From: Actinoplanes octamycinicus
Lineage (GTDB): Bacteria; Actinomycetota; Actinomycetes; Mycobacteriales; Micromonosporaceae
Reading direction: 5' to 3'
NCBI RefSeq assembly: GCF_014205225.1
Contig: NZ_JACHNB010000001.1
Location: 3,329,501-3,393,500, forward strand
Length of the DNA stretch: 64,000 nt
In this document: positions 6,473-45,587 of the stretch, piece by piece
Layout: the number at the start of each line of letters is the position of its first letter
Numbering within the stretch: position 1 is the stretch's first letter
Translations under genes and position numbers: made by a program
The notes under the pieces: model-generated
Told to the model about the DNA's origin: nothing
What the model saw: the letters and a program-made list of their open reading frames with translations, nothing else
Database searches by the model: none

Positions 6473-7232
6473 GCGGACTTCCCTTCGGGCGAGGCGACCG
6501 GTCGCCGCGCGCCACCACTCCCCGTTGCGACGTGCGAAGACGACCTGTGGAGTGTGATGCCCGGGGGACGCCGCACCTAACCCTGCGCCGCCGTGCTGAC
6601 CCGGGAAGAACGAGGAGCGTGACGGCTCCGGGCGTACCCCCGGCAGTCGTCCACGGTCCGGCGCGGCGAGCGGACCGCAACCCGACGCGGTCGTGGCGGC
6701 CGCAGGCGTGACCGAAACCGACCACTGCGGCCTTCTAGCGGTCGATCCAGCGATCCGAGTCGATCGGGACATCGGTGGGCATGAGCGCGCAGCGACCTTC
6801 CCGGCCTCGCAAGGCGGGCATTTGCCACGTGCTGGGGCACGCGCCGGACGCACGAGCAGCCGAACGTTGCATGTCCATTTGAACAGATAGTGCACGCGAG
6901 CGTCCGTCCGAAAACGCTCTCCCGGGCTTCGCTCCCGCTTGCTACTCGCTGGTCACCCCGCCCGCGAACATCGTCGCCCGCCGATGAACGTGACGATTTT
7001 CGATCATGAATCCGCCGGTCACGGTGTCGCACGGCAAGTACGCCGATGATCCGCAGCGCGCCGCACGCTCGTATCGGAGGGCAGGACATTCCAGGATGGA
7101 GGCAGCCATGGCATCCCGATGGCTGGGTACTGGCGGATCAAGGGACGTGCCGCGGATGGTCCATACTGGAAGCGTCGGCACGAGCGAATGCACGTGCACC
7201 TGCACGGGTCGTCTCGTCCGGGGAGGAAACTG
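6473..7232. other. Intergenic region without a convincing gene
   Basis: These 760 bases separate the divergent YihY and EboE-like genes. Several open frames cross it, but none has a good start, a ribosome site or protein-like composition. It presumably contains both promoters, although I could not place either with confidence. The base composition is slightly less GC-rich than the neighbours around 6850-7050. Confidence 0.5.
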
Positions 7233-8141
7233 ATGCGGCTGCGACATCCCTCCGGCCGGATCGTGCACCTCGCCTGCGGCGTGAGCCTGATCGAGGCGCG
7301 GACCCCAGCCGACGCCTTCGCGACGATCGACGCGGTCGCCACCGAGCTGCGCGCCGCCCTGGCCGCCGCCCGCCACGACCTCGGCCGGCTCGGGATCGCC
7401 CTGCGCCTGCCCTACCCGCTTGCCGCCGCCCTCGTCGACGACGGGCGCGCCCGCACCCGGCTGCGTGCCGAACTCGACGCCCGAGGCCTCGACGTCGTCA
7501 CGCTGAACGGCGGGCCCGACGCCGAGGGCGGCGGCCCGCCCCCACTGCCCGACTGGAGCGAGCCGGCCCGGCTGCGGCACACCCTCGACCTGGCCCGGAT
7601 CCTGGTCGGCCTGCTGCCCGACGAGGAGGTCCGCGGCGCGGTCGGCAGCTGCGGGCTGGCCCGCCGCGCGGACTGGGATGAGGCCCACGAGCGGGCCGGC
7701 GCCCGGCACCTGTCCCGGCTCTCCGGCGGGCTCGCCGACCTGGCCTGGCGGGTCGGGCGCGCGGTCCGGGCCGGCTTCCAGCCCGCGCCCGGGCAGGTCC
7801 TGGACAGCCCGGAGGACACCGTCGCCGCGCTGACCCGGGTGGACAAGGACCGGCTCGGCGTCTGCCTTGACCTGGCCCGGGTGGTCCGCGACTGGCCGGA
7901 CCCGGCGGACGGCGTCGACCGGCTCACCGACGCCGGCCTGTCGGTGATCACGGCGCGGATCACCGACCCGGCGGCCGCCTGGCAGCCGGTGCTGCGTCAC
8001 CTGCTCGCCGCGGACACCGCCCGCACCGAGTACATCGAGGTGGACGCACCCGGCTCGGCGGCCGGGCACCTGGCGTACGTCATCAATGAACTCACCACCC
8101 TCGGCCTGGTGCCGGAGCACCAGCCCTGCCCCGCGCCCTGA
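7233..8141 (+). CDS. EboE-like TIM-barrel protein (sugar phosphate isomerase-like)
   Basis: The 302-aa product resembles the xylose-isomerase-like TIM-barrel proteins grouped with EboE. The N-terminal part has HLACGVSLIEARTPADA, then GIALRLPYPLA and a VVTLNGGPD strand, which correspond to the family's first barrel strands. In organisms with the ebo cluster, EboE is thought to help move a metabolite precursor to the cell envelope, but no other ebo genes are nearby. The ATG at 7233 is preceded by GGGAGGA at good spacing. A longer in-frame reading back to 7119 is unlikely. A clear hairpin terminator follows, so the gene is monocistronic. Confidence 0.65.
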   Translation: MRLRHPSGRIVHLACGVSLIEARTPADAFATIDAVATELRAALAAARHDLGRLGIALRLPYPLAAALVDDGRARTRLRAELDARGLDVVTLNGGPDAEGGGPPPLPDWSEPARLRHTLDLARILVGLLPDEEVRGAVGSCGLARRADWDEAHERAGARHLSRLSGGLADLAWRVGRAVRAGFQPAPGQVLDSPEDTVAALTRVDKDRLGVCLDLARVVRDWPDPADGVDRLTDAGLSVITARITDPAAAWQPVLRHLLAADTARTEYIEVDAPGSAAGHLAYVINELTTLGLVPEHQPCPAP

Positions 8142-41850: not shown

Positions 41851-42462
41851 TCAGCGGGGGTAGCCGGTGCCGCCGGTCAGGTCGAGCGCGAGGCCGCCGC
41901 CGACCGACTGGAAGGTGTAACCGGCGAACTGGTGCCGATCCAGGGCCTGCTGGGCGGTGCCGTCATAGGGCTCGATCCGCTCCGCCCAGGCGGCGATCTC
42001 CCGGTACGACCGGGCGCTCACCATGCCGCGCAGGCAGTAGTCGATCATGGCGGCCGGATCGGTGGGACCGTCGGCCTCGGGCAGCCACCCGGCCCGGCCG
42101 CAGCTCACCATCCACACCTTGTCCGGAGCGCCGGGCATGCGGATCAGGACCAGGACGAGGCTGCGCCCGGCGTGACCCGGGAACGGCGCGGTCATCCGCA
42201 CCACGCGGCCCACGTCCCAGGTGTCCTCGGTGGCTTGCGTCTTCCACCGGGCCGTCCACGCCGTGGTCACCCCGGTCACGGTCAGCCCGGGGATCGGCGC
42301 CGGGGCGACCGGCGCCGGTGGGCTGGTGGCAGGCGGCGTGAGCGCCGGCCGGGCGGCCGGCAGCGGCGCCGGGGCGGCCGCCCAGAAGAACGCCGCGGCG
42401 ACCAGCGCCGCCAGCGACGTGGCCAGCCACTCGGCACGCCGCCGGCGGGCCGGCCCGGTCAT
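41851..42462 (-). CDS. Membrane-anchored hypothetical protein coupled to the macrodomain gene
   Basis: The 203-aa product has a short basic N-terminus, one transmembrane segment (LATSLAALVAAAFFWAAAPA), a Pro-rich linker and an extracytoplasmic domain (WTARWKTQATEDTWDVGRVV, MVSCGRAGWLP). Its ATG overlaps the stop of the macrodomain gene by four bases. No family is recognised. Export of the product does not obviously fit a role with the cytoplasmic macrodomain protein. Confidence 0.75.
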   Translation of the reverse strand: MTGPARRRRAEWLATSLAALVAAAFFWAAAPAPLPAARPALTPPATSPPAPVAPAPIPGLTVTGVTTAWTARWKTQATEDTWDVGRVVRMTAPFPGHAGRSLVLVLIRMPGAPDKVWMVSCGRAGWLPEADGPTDPAAMIDYCLRGMVSARSYREIAAWAERIEPYDGTAQQALDRHQFAGYTFQSVGGGLALDLTGGTGYPR

Positions 42463-43112
42463 CGCCGGGCAGCCGGTGGGGTGATCCGCACCCGCTCGCC
42501 GGCCGGCCGGGTCTCGATGTCACCGAGCTGGGCCGCCACCGTGGCGCGCAGCTCGGCGTAGTCGTCGAAGGAGTAGTCCTGGAACAGCGTGTAGCCCGCC
42601 CACATCAGGTTCGCGCAGACCTGGGCCGGCACCCGGCCGGTCGCCGCGCCCATGCCGACCAGCGCGACCGACGTGATGCTGCCCGGCGCCTCCGCGTTCT
42701 GCATGTGCACGGCCTGGAAGGCGGCGGCGCAGGCGAGCGCGACATTGAGGGTCTCCCGCACGTTCTCCGAGGACTGCTCCATGGTGGGGGCGGAGATCAG
42801 GAATCGCGGGGTGGCCGCGCCGGACGGCACGCAGACCGCGCTGCCGATCGGCAGCGTCCCGCCGAACCGCTCCTTGATCGCGCGCTGCACCCGCAGCTGG
42901 ATGCCGGCGCCCAGGTGCCGCTTGATCACCGCGTCCACCCCGCCGTTCATCGCGCCGTGCGAGTTGGTCGGGCTGACCCACGCGTCCGCCTGCTGGGTCA
43001 GGATCGATCCCTTGTGGATCTCGACCTCCGGGTTGCCGGCGAAGGCCGACCTCCAGGCCTCGATCACCTTGGCGTTGACATCGACGAGGATTACCTTGCG
43101 CAGCGTGGTCAC
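42459..43112 (-). CDS. Macrodomain protein (ADP-ribose binding or hydrolase)
   Basis: The 217-aa product is a macrodomain. After an initial strand (VILVDVNAKVIEAWRSAFAG) come ILTQQADAWVSPTNSHGAMN and GGVDAVIKRHLGAGIQ, equivalent to the catalytic N-GGVD loop of hydrolytic macrodomains. SVALVGMGAATGRVPAQVCA later is equivalent to the second ADP-ribose phosphate loop. Macrodomains bind ADP-ribose and some remove it from protein or nucleic acid. It starts at GTG 43112, 65 bases from a divergent gene that encodes an ADP-ribosyltransferase domain, which makes an eraser/antidote role plausible. Confidence 0.85.
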   Translation of the reverse strand: MTTLRKVILVDVNAKVIEAWRSAFAGNPEVEIHKGSILTQQADAWVSPTNSHGAMNGGVDAVIKRHLGAGIQLRVQRAIKERFGGTLPIGSAVCVPSGAATPRFLISAPTMEQSSENVRETLNVALACAAAFQAVHMQNAEAPGSITSVALVGMGAATGRVPAQVCANLMWAGYTLFQDYSFDDYAELRATVAAQLGDIETRPAGERVRITPPAARR

Positions 43113-43177
43113 GGGCAGCAACCTACCGCGAGGGTCCGACAAAAGAGTGGCGCCGGCGGGCCTGCCATCATCGCCGC

Positions 43178-44740
43178 GTGACGGAGACGAATGACCCGCT
43201 GAAACTGTCCGAGCTCTTCGCCGGCGGCGGCGAGCCGTGGCAGCCGCTGCTGCAGCCGGTGATCGAGGCTCAGCCGGGCGCCGCGAGCTTCATCGGCCCG
43301 GGCCGCAGCCCGCAGGTGGTGCCGGTCCGGGAGCTGACCTTCCAGGCCCTGAAACCCAACCCGCCGGAGAAGTGGAAGGTCGTCGTCTTCGGCCAGAACC
43401 CCTACCCGCGGCCGGAGAGCGCCACCGGCATCGCGATGTTCGACAACACCTTCCACGACTGGGCGGACAGCCAGTTCGGCCGGGTGGTCAGCATCCGCTG
43501 CATCATCAAGGCCGCCGCGATGTGGAAGTACGGCATCCCGAAGAAGACGCCGATCGCCGACATCCGGGCGCTGCTCAAGTCCCACGACACGGTGCAGCCG
43601 CCGGAGTGGTTCCAGGCCATGCTGACGCAGGGCGTGCTGCTGCTCAACGCGGCGCTGACCGCGAGCGCCGACGGCGCGATGGGCACCGACCAGCACACCG
43701 CGTTCTGGCGGCCGGTCGTGGAGCGGATCGTCGAGGAGATCCTGCGGGCCAAGTCCGAGGCGGACGAGCCGGACCGGGGGGTCGTCTTCGCCTGGTGGGG
43801 CGCGCACGCCCGGACCCTCAAGAGTCTGGTCCTGCGGCTGGAGAAGAAGTATCCCGGCGTCGAGGTGCGGCACCTCGACCACCCGAACCCGGCCGCCCAG
43901 GGCGACATCTTCTGCGACAACGAGCACTTCACCGTGGTCAACGACGCGCTGCGCGGGCTCGGGATGGACCCGGTCGACTGGCTGCCCAGCGCCGGGTGGA
44001 ACCAGGCCTCCGACCACGCCGACCGGATGGGCGCCTTCATCACGTCCACCATGGAGCTGCACCAGCTCTACCTGGAGCGGCTGGCCGGCGTCAAGGACGA
44101 GGGCCTGTCGCTGCCGGCGATCACCGGCGTGCTCGACACCCCGCTGCTCGACTTCCGCAAGGCGGTCGCGCCGGCCGCCGAGACGCTGGGCGGGCTCGAC
44201 CACTACGTCGAGCGGTCGCAGGCCTTCGGCGAGCGGCTGACCGGCACCGCCGGGCTGAGCGCCGACGAGGTGGCCGCGCTGTACCTCTACACCTGCGAGT
44301 CCGCCTTCTACCGGCAGATCAACGCGACGCTGCGGGACCCGGACCGCAGCCGGATCACGCCGTACCTGCCGTACCTCAGGCTGTTGTTCTCCGCGGTGGA
44401 CCGCCTGCCGGTGCGCCGGGAGCCGCTCTGGCGGGGCGTCTCGCTCGATCTGCGCGCGCAGTACCCGCTCGGCCAGACGGTGACCTGGTGGGGCGTGTCG
44501 TCGTGCACCTCGGAGATCGGTGTCGCCCGGGCCTTCCTCGGCGGCCGCGGCAGACGCACGCTCTTCGAGGTCACCCCGGCCCGCGCGGTCGGCATCCGGA
44601 GCTTCTCCGCCTTCACCGGCGAGGAGGAGTTCATCCTGGCGCCCGGCACCCAGCTCAAGGTCACCGAGGTGACCGCGGCCCGCGGCGGCCTGTGCACCGT
44701 CAAACTCACCGAGCTGGCCGAGGCGCGCATGGTCGCCTGA
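43178..44740 (+). CDS. Uracil-DNA-glycosylase-like domain fused to an ADP-ribosyltransferase domain
   Basis: The 520-aa protein has two parts. Residues about 60-275 follow family-1 UDG: VVVFGQNPYPRPESATGIAM for GQDPYH, QGVLLLNAALT for the conserved Asn strand, VVFAWWGAHA, and HLDHPNPAA for the HPSPLS loop. The catalytic Asp of GQDPY is Asn here, while Tyr, Asn and His are kept. Residues about 290-520 look like an R-S-E-class ADP-ribosyltransferase: LWRGVS near 415, WGVSSCTSE near 438 and FTGEEEFILAPGT near 478 with the E-x-E pair. The divergent neighbour is a macrodomain gene. A DNA-directed modifier is inference. Confidence 0.85.
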   Translation: MTETNDPLKLSELFAGGGEPWQPLLQPVIEAQPGAASFIGPGRSPQVVPVRELTFQALKPNPPEKWKVVVFGQNPYPRPESATGIAMFDNTFHDWADSQFGRVVSIRCIIKAAAMWKYGIPKKTPIADIRALLKSHDTVQPPEWFQAMLTQGVLLLNAALTASADGAMGTDQHTAFWRPVVERIVEEILRAKSEADEPDRGVVFAWWGAHARTLKSLVLRLEKKYPGVEVRHLDHPNPAAQGDIFCDNEHFTVVNDALRGLGMDPVDWLPSAGWNQASDHADRMGAFITSTMELHQLYLERLAGVKDEGLSLPAITGVLDTPLLDFRKAVAPAAETLGGLDHYVERSQAFGERLTGTAGLSADEVAALYLYTCESAFYRQINATLRDPDRSRITPYLPYLRLLFSAVDRLPVRREPLWRGVSLDLRAQYPLGQTVTWWGVSSCTSEIGVARAFLGGRGRRTLFEVTPARAVGIRSFSAFTGEEEFILAPGTQLKVTEVTAARGGLCTVKLTELAEARMVA

Positions 44741-44782
44741 CGGTCTTTTTTCTGGGGTACGACGTCAGCACCGTCCTCGTTC

Positions 44783-45427
44783 TCAGCGGCACCGCCACAG
44801 CAGCGGGTCGTTGCTGACGTCCGGCCCCGAGCTGTACCCGCTGATCGTCCGGCCGTCGTCGCTGATGCTGGTCAGCATGTAGGAGGCGGCCTCGCGGTCC
44901 AGTCCCGGCAACCGGACCGGCGCCGGCCCGGCGAGCAGCGCGGGAGTGTCCTCGCCGGCGCCGGCCACCCAGCCGTTCGGCGTGATCAGCTCGGCCCGCC
45001 ACAGCCCGTCCAGGCGCTCGTAGGCCCCGCTGGTGATCCGGTAGCGCATCGGCGTGAACTCCCGCTGCCGCGGGCTCTCGAAGACCGCGTCGCCGGCCAC
45101 CCAGCCGTTGCTGATCGAGGTCGGCCAGAACGCGCTCGCCCGCCGGCCGTCCACCGTGGGCAGTCGCATCGCCTGCCCGGTGCCGCCCGGCCACCACAGG
45201 TATCCGCTGTCCAGGCCGGTCTCCGAGCCGACCCGGCCGACGACGGTGCCGTCCTCGTCGAGCCCCTCGACCACCCCGTGGGTCGCACCCGGCGGCAGCG
45301 GCAACGGCACCGGGGCGGCGGTCACCGACGCCCACCGGGCCGGCACCTCGTCCGGCGCCGCGCCCAGGGCGCCGGCCACCACGCCGGCGTCGTTGATCGC
45401 CACGGCTGCGGCGTCCCGGCCGCGCAT
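44783..45427 (-). CDS. HAF-repeat-like protein, probably 5'-truncated
   Basis: At least 214 aa are read, made of repeated segments of the HAF/beta-propeller type (VAINDAGVVAGALG, GYLWWPGGTGQAMRLP, TSISDDGRTISGYSSG). The same repeat pattern continues upstream in frame (IDDLNSAGAGVG, FDARGRQHAYAYRDGRF) to a stop near 45578 without any ATG, GTG or TTG. The annotated ATG at 45427 therefore lies inside a repeat. The gene has probably lost its start and signal peptide. No function is assigned. Confidence 0.5.
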   Translation of the reverse strand: MRGRDAAAVAINDAGVVAGALGAAPDEVPARWASVTAAPVPLPLPPGATHGVVEGLDEDGTVVGRVGSETGLDSGYLWWPGGTGQAMRLPTVDGRRASAFWPTSISNGWVAGDAVFESPRQREFTPMRYRITSGAYERLDGLWRAELITPNGWVAGAGEDTPALLAGPAPVRLPGLDREAASYMLTSISDDGRTISGYSSGPDVSNDPLLWRCR

Positions 45428-45587
45428 CTCGGTGAACCGGCCGTCCCGGTAGGCGTACGCGTGCTGCCGCCCTCGCGCGTCGAAGGCGCTGCCGACCCCG
45501 GCGCCGGCGCTGTTCAGATCGTCGATCGAGGCGTCCGAGCCGGCTGCTTTTCCCGACGGGCTGGCGCCGATGTGTCAGACTGCGCGG

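Follow-up and report, generated by a model that had tools for sequence, protein, structure and literature searches.

In eukaryotes, reversible ADP-ribosylation is central to the response to DNA lesions; bacteria are best known for toxin versions of this chemistry, e.g., DarTG, in which DarT, a toxic ADP-ribosyltransferase (ART) acting on thymidine or guanosine of DNA, is paired with the macrodomain protein DarG, which reverses the mark. The macrodomain protein SCO6735 of Streptomyces coelicolor is encoded behind a RecA-NDp promoter, is raised 5-fold by UV (PMC5087735) and is reported to cleave thymidine-linked ADP-ribose (PMC5087735, PMC9411070). In actinobacteria, RecA-NDp is described as the damage promoter that works independently of RecA and is targeted by PafBC (PMC8223512, PMC6789036). 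The locus considered here lies in a 64,000-nucleotide stretch of the Actinoplanes octamycinicus genome (contig NZ_JACHNB010000001.1, positions 3,329,501 to 3,393,500; hereafter the window), in which a gene encoding a uracil-DNA glycosylase (UDG)-like domain fused to an ART diverges from a macrodomain gene that lies behind a RecA-NDp-type motif. Both the fusion and the pairing are real and conserved, as is the UDG domain, which is likely inactive; the two-gene unit is found in many soil actinobacteria. In our opinion, the pair may best be read as a damage-induced, self-contained ADP-ribosylation module, which would be aimed by a dead Ung-fold reader and whose mark the macrodomain would read or remove; we give this reading slightly less than an even chance. 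The pair may represent an undescribed damage-signalling or self-poisoning system.

By family, the pair is not DarTG. Of the DarTG analogy drawn in the initial annotation, the pairing of an ART with a macrodomain stands, but the fusion does not belong to the DarT family: at E up to 1 it matches PF01129 and PF03496 and no other family in Pfam, and no model in PADLOC. Unlike DarT, its ART is of the PF01129 R-S-ExE type and is joined to a UDG domain, and the genes are divergent, tandem or fused and accompanied by a RecA-NDp-type motif. A damage-aimed ART with a macrodomain would work similarly to damage signalling by PARPs with PARG/MacroD; PARPs, however, are H-Y-E ARTs with other DNA-binding modules, and no close kinship of the fusion ART to them was seen. 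The likeness to SCO6735 lies in an actinobacterial macrodomain behind a RecA-NDp promoter, but the same-strand upstream neighbour of SCO6735 is an amino-acid permease, and the accessible text of the two reports mentions no UDG or glycosylase (PMC5087735, PMC9411070). Literature searches aimed at a UDG-ART fusion with a macrodomain found no description, supplements and most subscription papers lying outside their reach, in line with the statement in the initial annotation that no system with this fusion was known.

The fusion gene (43178..44740, plus strand) begins with GTG and encodes 520 residues; homologues of full length exist (120 listed of 1156 protein matches). The Ung-family UDG-like domain occupies residues 1-275 (43178..44002, plus strand) and contains GQNPYP (72-77), LLLNAALT (154-161) and HPNPAA (235-240), with Asn74 at the position of the Ung catalytic Asp. 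The ART domain occupies residues 354-513 (44237..44716, plus strand) and contains LWRGVS (417-422), SSCTSE (441-446) and EEEFILAPG (482-490). The macrodomain gene (42459..43112, minus strand) encodes 217 residues, probably from a leaderless GTG at 43112. The open reading frame (ORF) list starts it at TTG 43142, which is the first triplet of the promoter motif TTGTCGGACCCTCGCGGTAGGTT (43120..43142, minus strand); the GTG lies 7 bases behind this motif and leaves a 65-base gap to the fusion gene. That gap, the reading frames, motifs and coordinates, and the divergent arrangement of fusion and macrodomain at the core of the initial annotation, all hold, and its three domain calls are borne out by Pfam, NCBIfam and PDB matches. 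Added to them here are the damage-type promoter, a single-chain form, an empty site in a relative and relatives in protists.

Sequence matches place the N-terminal half as kin of Ung and the C-terminal half as an ART above cut-off. NCBIfam Ung models match the fusion down to E 3.6e-21, yet below their own equivalog cut-offs. The best PDB sequence match is a family-1 UDG, 5x3g (E 6.9e-15), which reaches E 3.3e-21 with a profile built from diverse relatives; the Pfam UDG model is weak, matching the N-terminal half alone at E 0.01, below cut-off. The PYPRPESA-G stretch is common to the fusion and 5x3g, but 5x3g keeps the Asp (GQDPYP) and is a 263-residue chain without an ART. The source genome encodes a separate Ung, above cut-off, at C1:2606328; the UDG domain of the fusion is therefore not that housekeeping enzyme.

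Residues were counted in 92 distinct actinobacterial fusion proteins, the window included (identical ones collapsed; L001-L003 and L027 omitted), and Ung roles were placed by PDB alignment with 5x3g. At residue 74, the column of the catalytic Asp, 91 of the 92 proteins have Asn and one has Glu. Among 56 divergent relatives (at most 70% identity) the column is gapped in 20, and in the other 36 it holds Asn 17 times, Ser 14 times, Ala twice, and Cys, Thr and Arg once each, a few odd letters being due to broken or misaligned fragments. Thus, the Asp of GQDPY, by which an Ung enzyme is recognized, is present in none of the 128 sequences having that column, protists included, and the Asp-to-Asn change reported for the window extends, as a loss of Asp, to the whole family. 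The Leu of Ung HPSPL is replaced by Ala239 in all 92 proteins. N157, in the column of the Asn with which Ung recognizes uracil, is kept in 91/92 actinobacterial and 43/48 divergent sequences, and the PYPR-ESATG-A stretch and NPAA are largely retained in the divergent relatives. The glycosylase residues therefore drift, while the pyrimidine-recognition Asn and the residues of the ART writer persist. These counts suggest that the UDG domain is likely a pseudo-glycosylase on a live-looking writer.

Alternatively, the UDG domain could still be an active glycosylase, in the manner of MUG and TDG, where Asn is the catalytic residue; it would then make an abasic site for the ART to cap. The retention of Y76 (91/92) and H235 (92/92) in the actinobacterial copies speaks for this view, but the Ser, Ala and Cys found at residue 74 in divergent relatives, along with the single Thr and Arg, weaken a catalytic-Asn reading. 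Moreover, the His at residue 235 is retained in 30 of 41 divergent relatives and replaced in 11, and the substitution by Ala239 is universal among the actinobacterial copies. We consider an active glycosylase very improbable.

The ART domain matches PF01129 at E 4.8e-10 (39.6 bits against a curated cut-off of 22.3). The R-S-ExE triad is present, R419, S441, S442, E482 and E484 each being found in all 92 actinobacterial copies; among divergent relatives, R419 is Arg in 21/22, E482 is Glu in 20/21 and E484 is Glu in 21/21. The AlphaFold model of the fusion (pLDDT 68.3, pTM 0.46) is usable in the ART half but not in the UDG half. No UDG appeared among the fold-search rows shown for it, which, the UDG half being poorly predicted, is no sign that the fold is absent. 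The nearest ART folds found with this model are ART2.2, 6drh and HopU1, and in sequence Vis and 6dre/6drh, the latter presumably Tre1, come closest among solved ARTs; 6drh is titled as an ART toxin/immunity pair. As toxins, Vis and Tre1 are secreted or injected, and neither has a UDG domain; the immunity protein of Tre1 is of the ARH type.

The macrodomain protein matches PF01661 at E 5.9e-11 (42.8 bits against a curated cut-off of 22). Its AlphaFold model (pLDDT 86.3) is nearest, among solved folds, to 1njr, YmdB and DarG. The loop PTNSHGAMNGGVDAV contains residues that align with the N..GGVD loop of DR_2288, and N60, G67, G68 and D70 are kept in 60 of 60 aligned copies. The PADLOC DarG model gives a weak match (E 0.012, 13.1 bits), the fold being common to both. 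A second, stronger macrodomain of the source genome (E 9.2e-41) lies at C1:1269571-1269921 (L001), inside a 559-residue open frame.

The chemistry of the writer deserves separate consideration. ART2.2, 6drh and HopU1 are arginine enzymes, an ExE motif usually denotes ADP-ribose transfer to protein arginine, and, to our knowledge, macrodomains have not been described as reversing that modification. In PMC7050489, ARTCs are described as mostly arginine-specific and ARH1 as the eraser of arginine ADP-ribose marks. Writer and eraser may therefore be mismatched, and this is the main tension in the proposed module. In an alternative scheme, the UDG domain would bring the ART to damaged DNA, the ART would modify arginines of bound proteins, and the macrodomain would bind the mark, recruiting or retaining the complex and erasing nothing. 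Such a scheme accords with the ExE invariance, the arginine-enzyme folds and the joining of macrodomain and writer in one chain. The invariant N60, G67, G68 and D70, matching the DR_2288 loop, suggest on the other hand that the macrodomain retains catalysis, and we regard a pure reader as distinctly unlikely.

The linkage of fusion and macrodomain is near-obligate, up to a single open frame, as the functional pairing proposed in the initial annotation predicts. Among 80 named genome loci, out of 184 found, the macrodomain gene adjoins the fusion in 78; in the other two the fusion starts close to a contig end (16 bases away in L075, 13 in L100) and no macrodomain gene is present. The fusion occurs in 49 of 295 Streptomyces genomes and the macrodomain in the same 49, neither being found alone at E 1e-100 and 1e-30. 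Across the phylum, a close macrodomain (E <1e-90) and the fusion (E <1e-270) share the same 3 of 396 genomes, where other UDG matches (E 3.5e-12 or weaker, covering part of the UDG half) are presumably ordinary Ung. Across the family, the fusion is found in 25 of 150 genomes and the macrodomain in those 25 and one more (G024). Among ORFs of at least 100 residues in the 80 loci there is no third conserved gene, the 26 listed clusters being the two genes and overlapping frames; shorter genes would escape this search.

The 49 Streptomyces copies comprise 18 divergent pairs, 12 same-strand pairs with the macrodomain upstream, 18 single open frames and one copy spread over two contigs. The single-frame form has the order macro-UDG-ART and 750-812 residues, and both Pfam domains are present in all 120 listed matches (of 1106) to one such triple fusion. 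In a quickly built tree of 81 fusions (L075 and L100 not counted for arrangement), the three states need two changes, in keeping with a single inversion followed by a single gene fusion. In G656 the pair lies over two contigs, the fusion locus L220 stopping at a contig end. In G594 (L208) the macrodomain gene is 2.4 kb from the fusion, with two ORFs inserted between the divergent genes (L259:3820-8444); the first of these is sigma-factor-like by eye, and the pair stays together.

So tight a linkage of ART and macrodomain, with no third partner found, is also what a toxin-antitoxin or abortive-infection unit would show; the UDG-ART would be a growth-stopping toxin, set free when DNA is damaged or phage infects, with the macrodomain as its antidote, as in DarTG. 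The nearest solved ARTs, one of them titled as a toxin/immunity pair, suit this explanation, as do the mobility and patchiness of the locus. The pair lies in a 3,695-bp islet (41857..45551) that the relative G856 lacks; there the two flanks, with 86.8% and 83.2% identity to those in the window, stand 8 bases apart. A pair match is listed in 2 of 40 genomes of the genus, the source (G000) and G834, and G834 lacks the flanks of the window within 16 kb around its pair. However, the single frame with the macrodomain in 18/49 Streptomyces copies removes the usual control by a separate antitoxin, which makes a classic pair less probable. On the fusion tree, the 5 families can be placed with 6 changes (least possible 4, shuffled mean 31.4), pointing to a gene that is inherited for the most part but subject to loss and some transfer. 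The dN/dS ratios are well below 1, at 0.12-0.20 for the fusion (five pairs) and 0.18-0.40 for the macrodomain (three pairs), and the carriers among the family and Streptomyces genomes have one fusion each (in G583, in two contig fragments).

Carriage by phages or plasmids was also considered and rejected. None of 44 phage records matching the fusion did so over 80% of the query; 5 viral-contig stretches matched the UDG-profile pattern, none being confirmed as a relative; and 4 of 36 matching plasmid records exceeded 80% of the query, two of them 11.85 and 5.7 Mb long. This distribution argues against the toxin explanation as well, which we consider rather unlikely. The initial annotation had also proposed phage defence, a role that finds little specific support in view of the phage result, the missing third gene and the silence of PADLOC. 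Full-length fusions were seen on a 334-kb plasmid record of Streptomyces sp. Caat 7-52 (NZ_CP098484.1, 215929-217500) and a 1.5-Mb one of Streptomyces sp. NBC_00841 (NZ_CP108854.1, 1079243-1080856).

The pair has a DNA-damage-type promoter, from which its induction by damage may be inferred. The strict pattern, TTGTCR-N11-TAnnnT, which we take to be the published RecA-NDp consensus, is present in the window at 43142-43120. A looser pattern (TGTCR-N11/12-TAnnnT) was counted in 94 divergent intergenic regions, 82 of them unique (L001, L002, loci without a macrodomain, same-strand loci and overlapping matches omitted). It is found in 78 of the 82, whereas 100 dinucleotide shuffles gave 0.48 on average and 3 at most; its density is 4.28 per kb, compared with 0.014 per kb across 927 kb of flanking sequence. 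Shuffles ignore common descent, for which unrelated flanks control in part. The strict form occurs in 58 of the 82 regions. Likewise, the motif stands upstream of the macrodomain in 7/7 co-directional or fused loci examined. By strand, the looser motif is on the macrodomain side in 71/82 regions and on the fusion side in 30/82, a bias that speaks against a damage-freed toxin. An SOS box (CGAAC-N4-GTTCG, 2 mismatches) was found in only 12 of the 94 regions and was set aside.

In the source genome (10.28 Mb) the strict motif has 49 sites, compared with 7 for the reversed pattern, and it precedes the recA GTG by 7 bases, the same distance as for the macrodomain GTG. Around 30 of the 49 sites, 17 further ORFs that begin within 8 bases of a site were scanned (12 later-starting ones fell outside the scan); judged by Pfam, eight of the 17 seem damage-related and nine do not. 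The eight, named by a reading of their domains, are RecA, an AlkZ-like glycosylase, a RadA-like protein, a DNA polymerase III delta' type subunit, a UvrB/Mfd-type protein, a DinB-type polymerase, a WYL/PafC-like regulator (its PafC model just below cut-off) and an AAA helicase-like protein. The link to damage suspected in the initial annotation is strengthened accordingly by the motif in 78/82 regions and ahead of recA.

In the damage-induced module that we favour, DNA damage would switch on the pair. The Ung-fold domain, devoid of glycosylase chemistry, would keep the pyrimidine-recognition Asn along with a new conserved signature and act as a reader, docking the fusion on uracil-containing or lesioned DNA or on a flipped or missing base. 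The docked ART would modify a local acceptor, either the DNA itself or a bound protein, and the macrodomain, expressed from the promoter region that it shares with the fusion or as part of one chain with it, would read or remove the mark; the outcome could be repair signalling or a replication stall. This chemistry has a precedent: the substrates of PARP10 include U in RNA and dU in single-stranded DNA, and U-ADP-ribose is reversed by TARG1, DarG and SCO6735 (PMC13036486).

Several findings, besides the possible mismatch of writer and eraser, weigh against this module. H235 is kept in every actinobacterial copy, and the UDG half of the AlphaFold model falls below pLDDT 50 at residues 74-114 and in other stretches, making the pocket geometry unusable. 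In the window, the motif is on the macrodomain strand only and the fusion strand is without it; elsewhere the fusion strand carries it in just the 30 regions noted above, and 4/82 lack it on both strands. The fusion gene is patchily distributed and sits in an islet, features that it shares with toxin and defence genes. Finally, the orphan macrodomain of G024 (64% identity) has no fusion. As separate observations on G024, an Ung-like ORF containing GQDPYM and HPSP is found 0.8 kb from the orphan (L274:5265-6008 and 6781-7458), one Gly of the orphan's GGVD loop is Ser by eye, and RecA-NDp-type motifs stand just ahead of both genes (5237, 6720).

Relatives of the UDG half extend to protists. The search excluded proteins longer than about 481 residues and listed 120 of 132 matches, among them a Planctomycetota and an Acidobacteria metagenome-assembled genome, Gracilaria domingensis, Prymnesium, a Symbiodinium-type gene model (symbB) and marine protist transcriptomes (mmetsp). 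The relative in Salpingoeca rosetta shows 60% identity over 98% of the query. The ART is above the Pfam cut-off in S. rosetta, Gracilaria and one further protist protein, i.e., in three of the protist relatives noted (P0257, P0321, P0287, P0319, P0276, P0326 and P0345); the Prymnesium fragment has it below cut-off, and the listed symbB and mmetsp proteins lack it. The S. rosetta model lacks the first part of the ART (match 402-473), possibly through a gene-model fault. Some protist relatives have basic N-termini. In two relatives (P0294 and P0298) the same pseudo-UDG is preceded by a WWE domain, an ADP-ribose binder, and these proteins may tie the UDG to ADP-ribose binding a second time.

These relatives allow a wider proposal, which we hold only tentatively and rather doubt, of a non-PARP, trans-kingdom pathway of lesion ADP-ribosylation. 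A dead UDG would find uracil or a related lesion, its own ART would mark the base, the abasic sugar or a bound protein, and a dedicated macrodomain would read or reset the mark; actinobacteria would use it in a damage response independent of LexA, and relatives of the UDG-ART writer would persist in several protist lineages, including a choanoflagellate and a red alga. The locus provides a conserved writer that has a damage-type promoter and a putative lesion-type reader built in; one macrodomain goes with this writer, in some cases within one chain. It also links the actinobacterial damage response to an unstudied family of protist proteins. Substrate, reversal and role are directly testable with two or three proteins, and a naturally dead UDG could serve as a probe for uracil or lesions. 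The 3.7-kb islet of the window also includes or borders two more ORFs, at 41851-42462 and 44783-45427, both on the minus strand.

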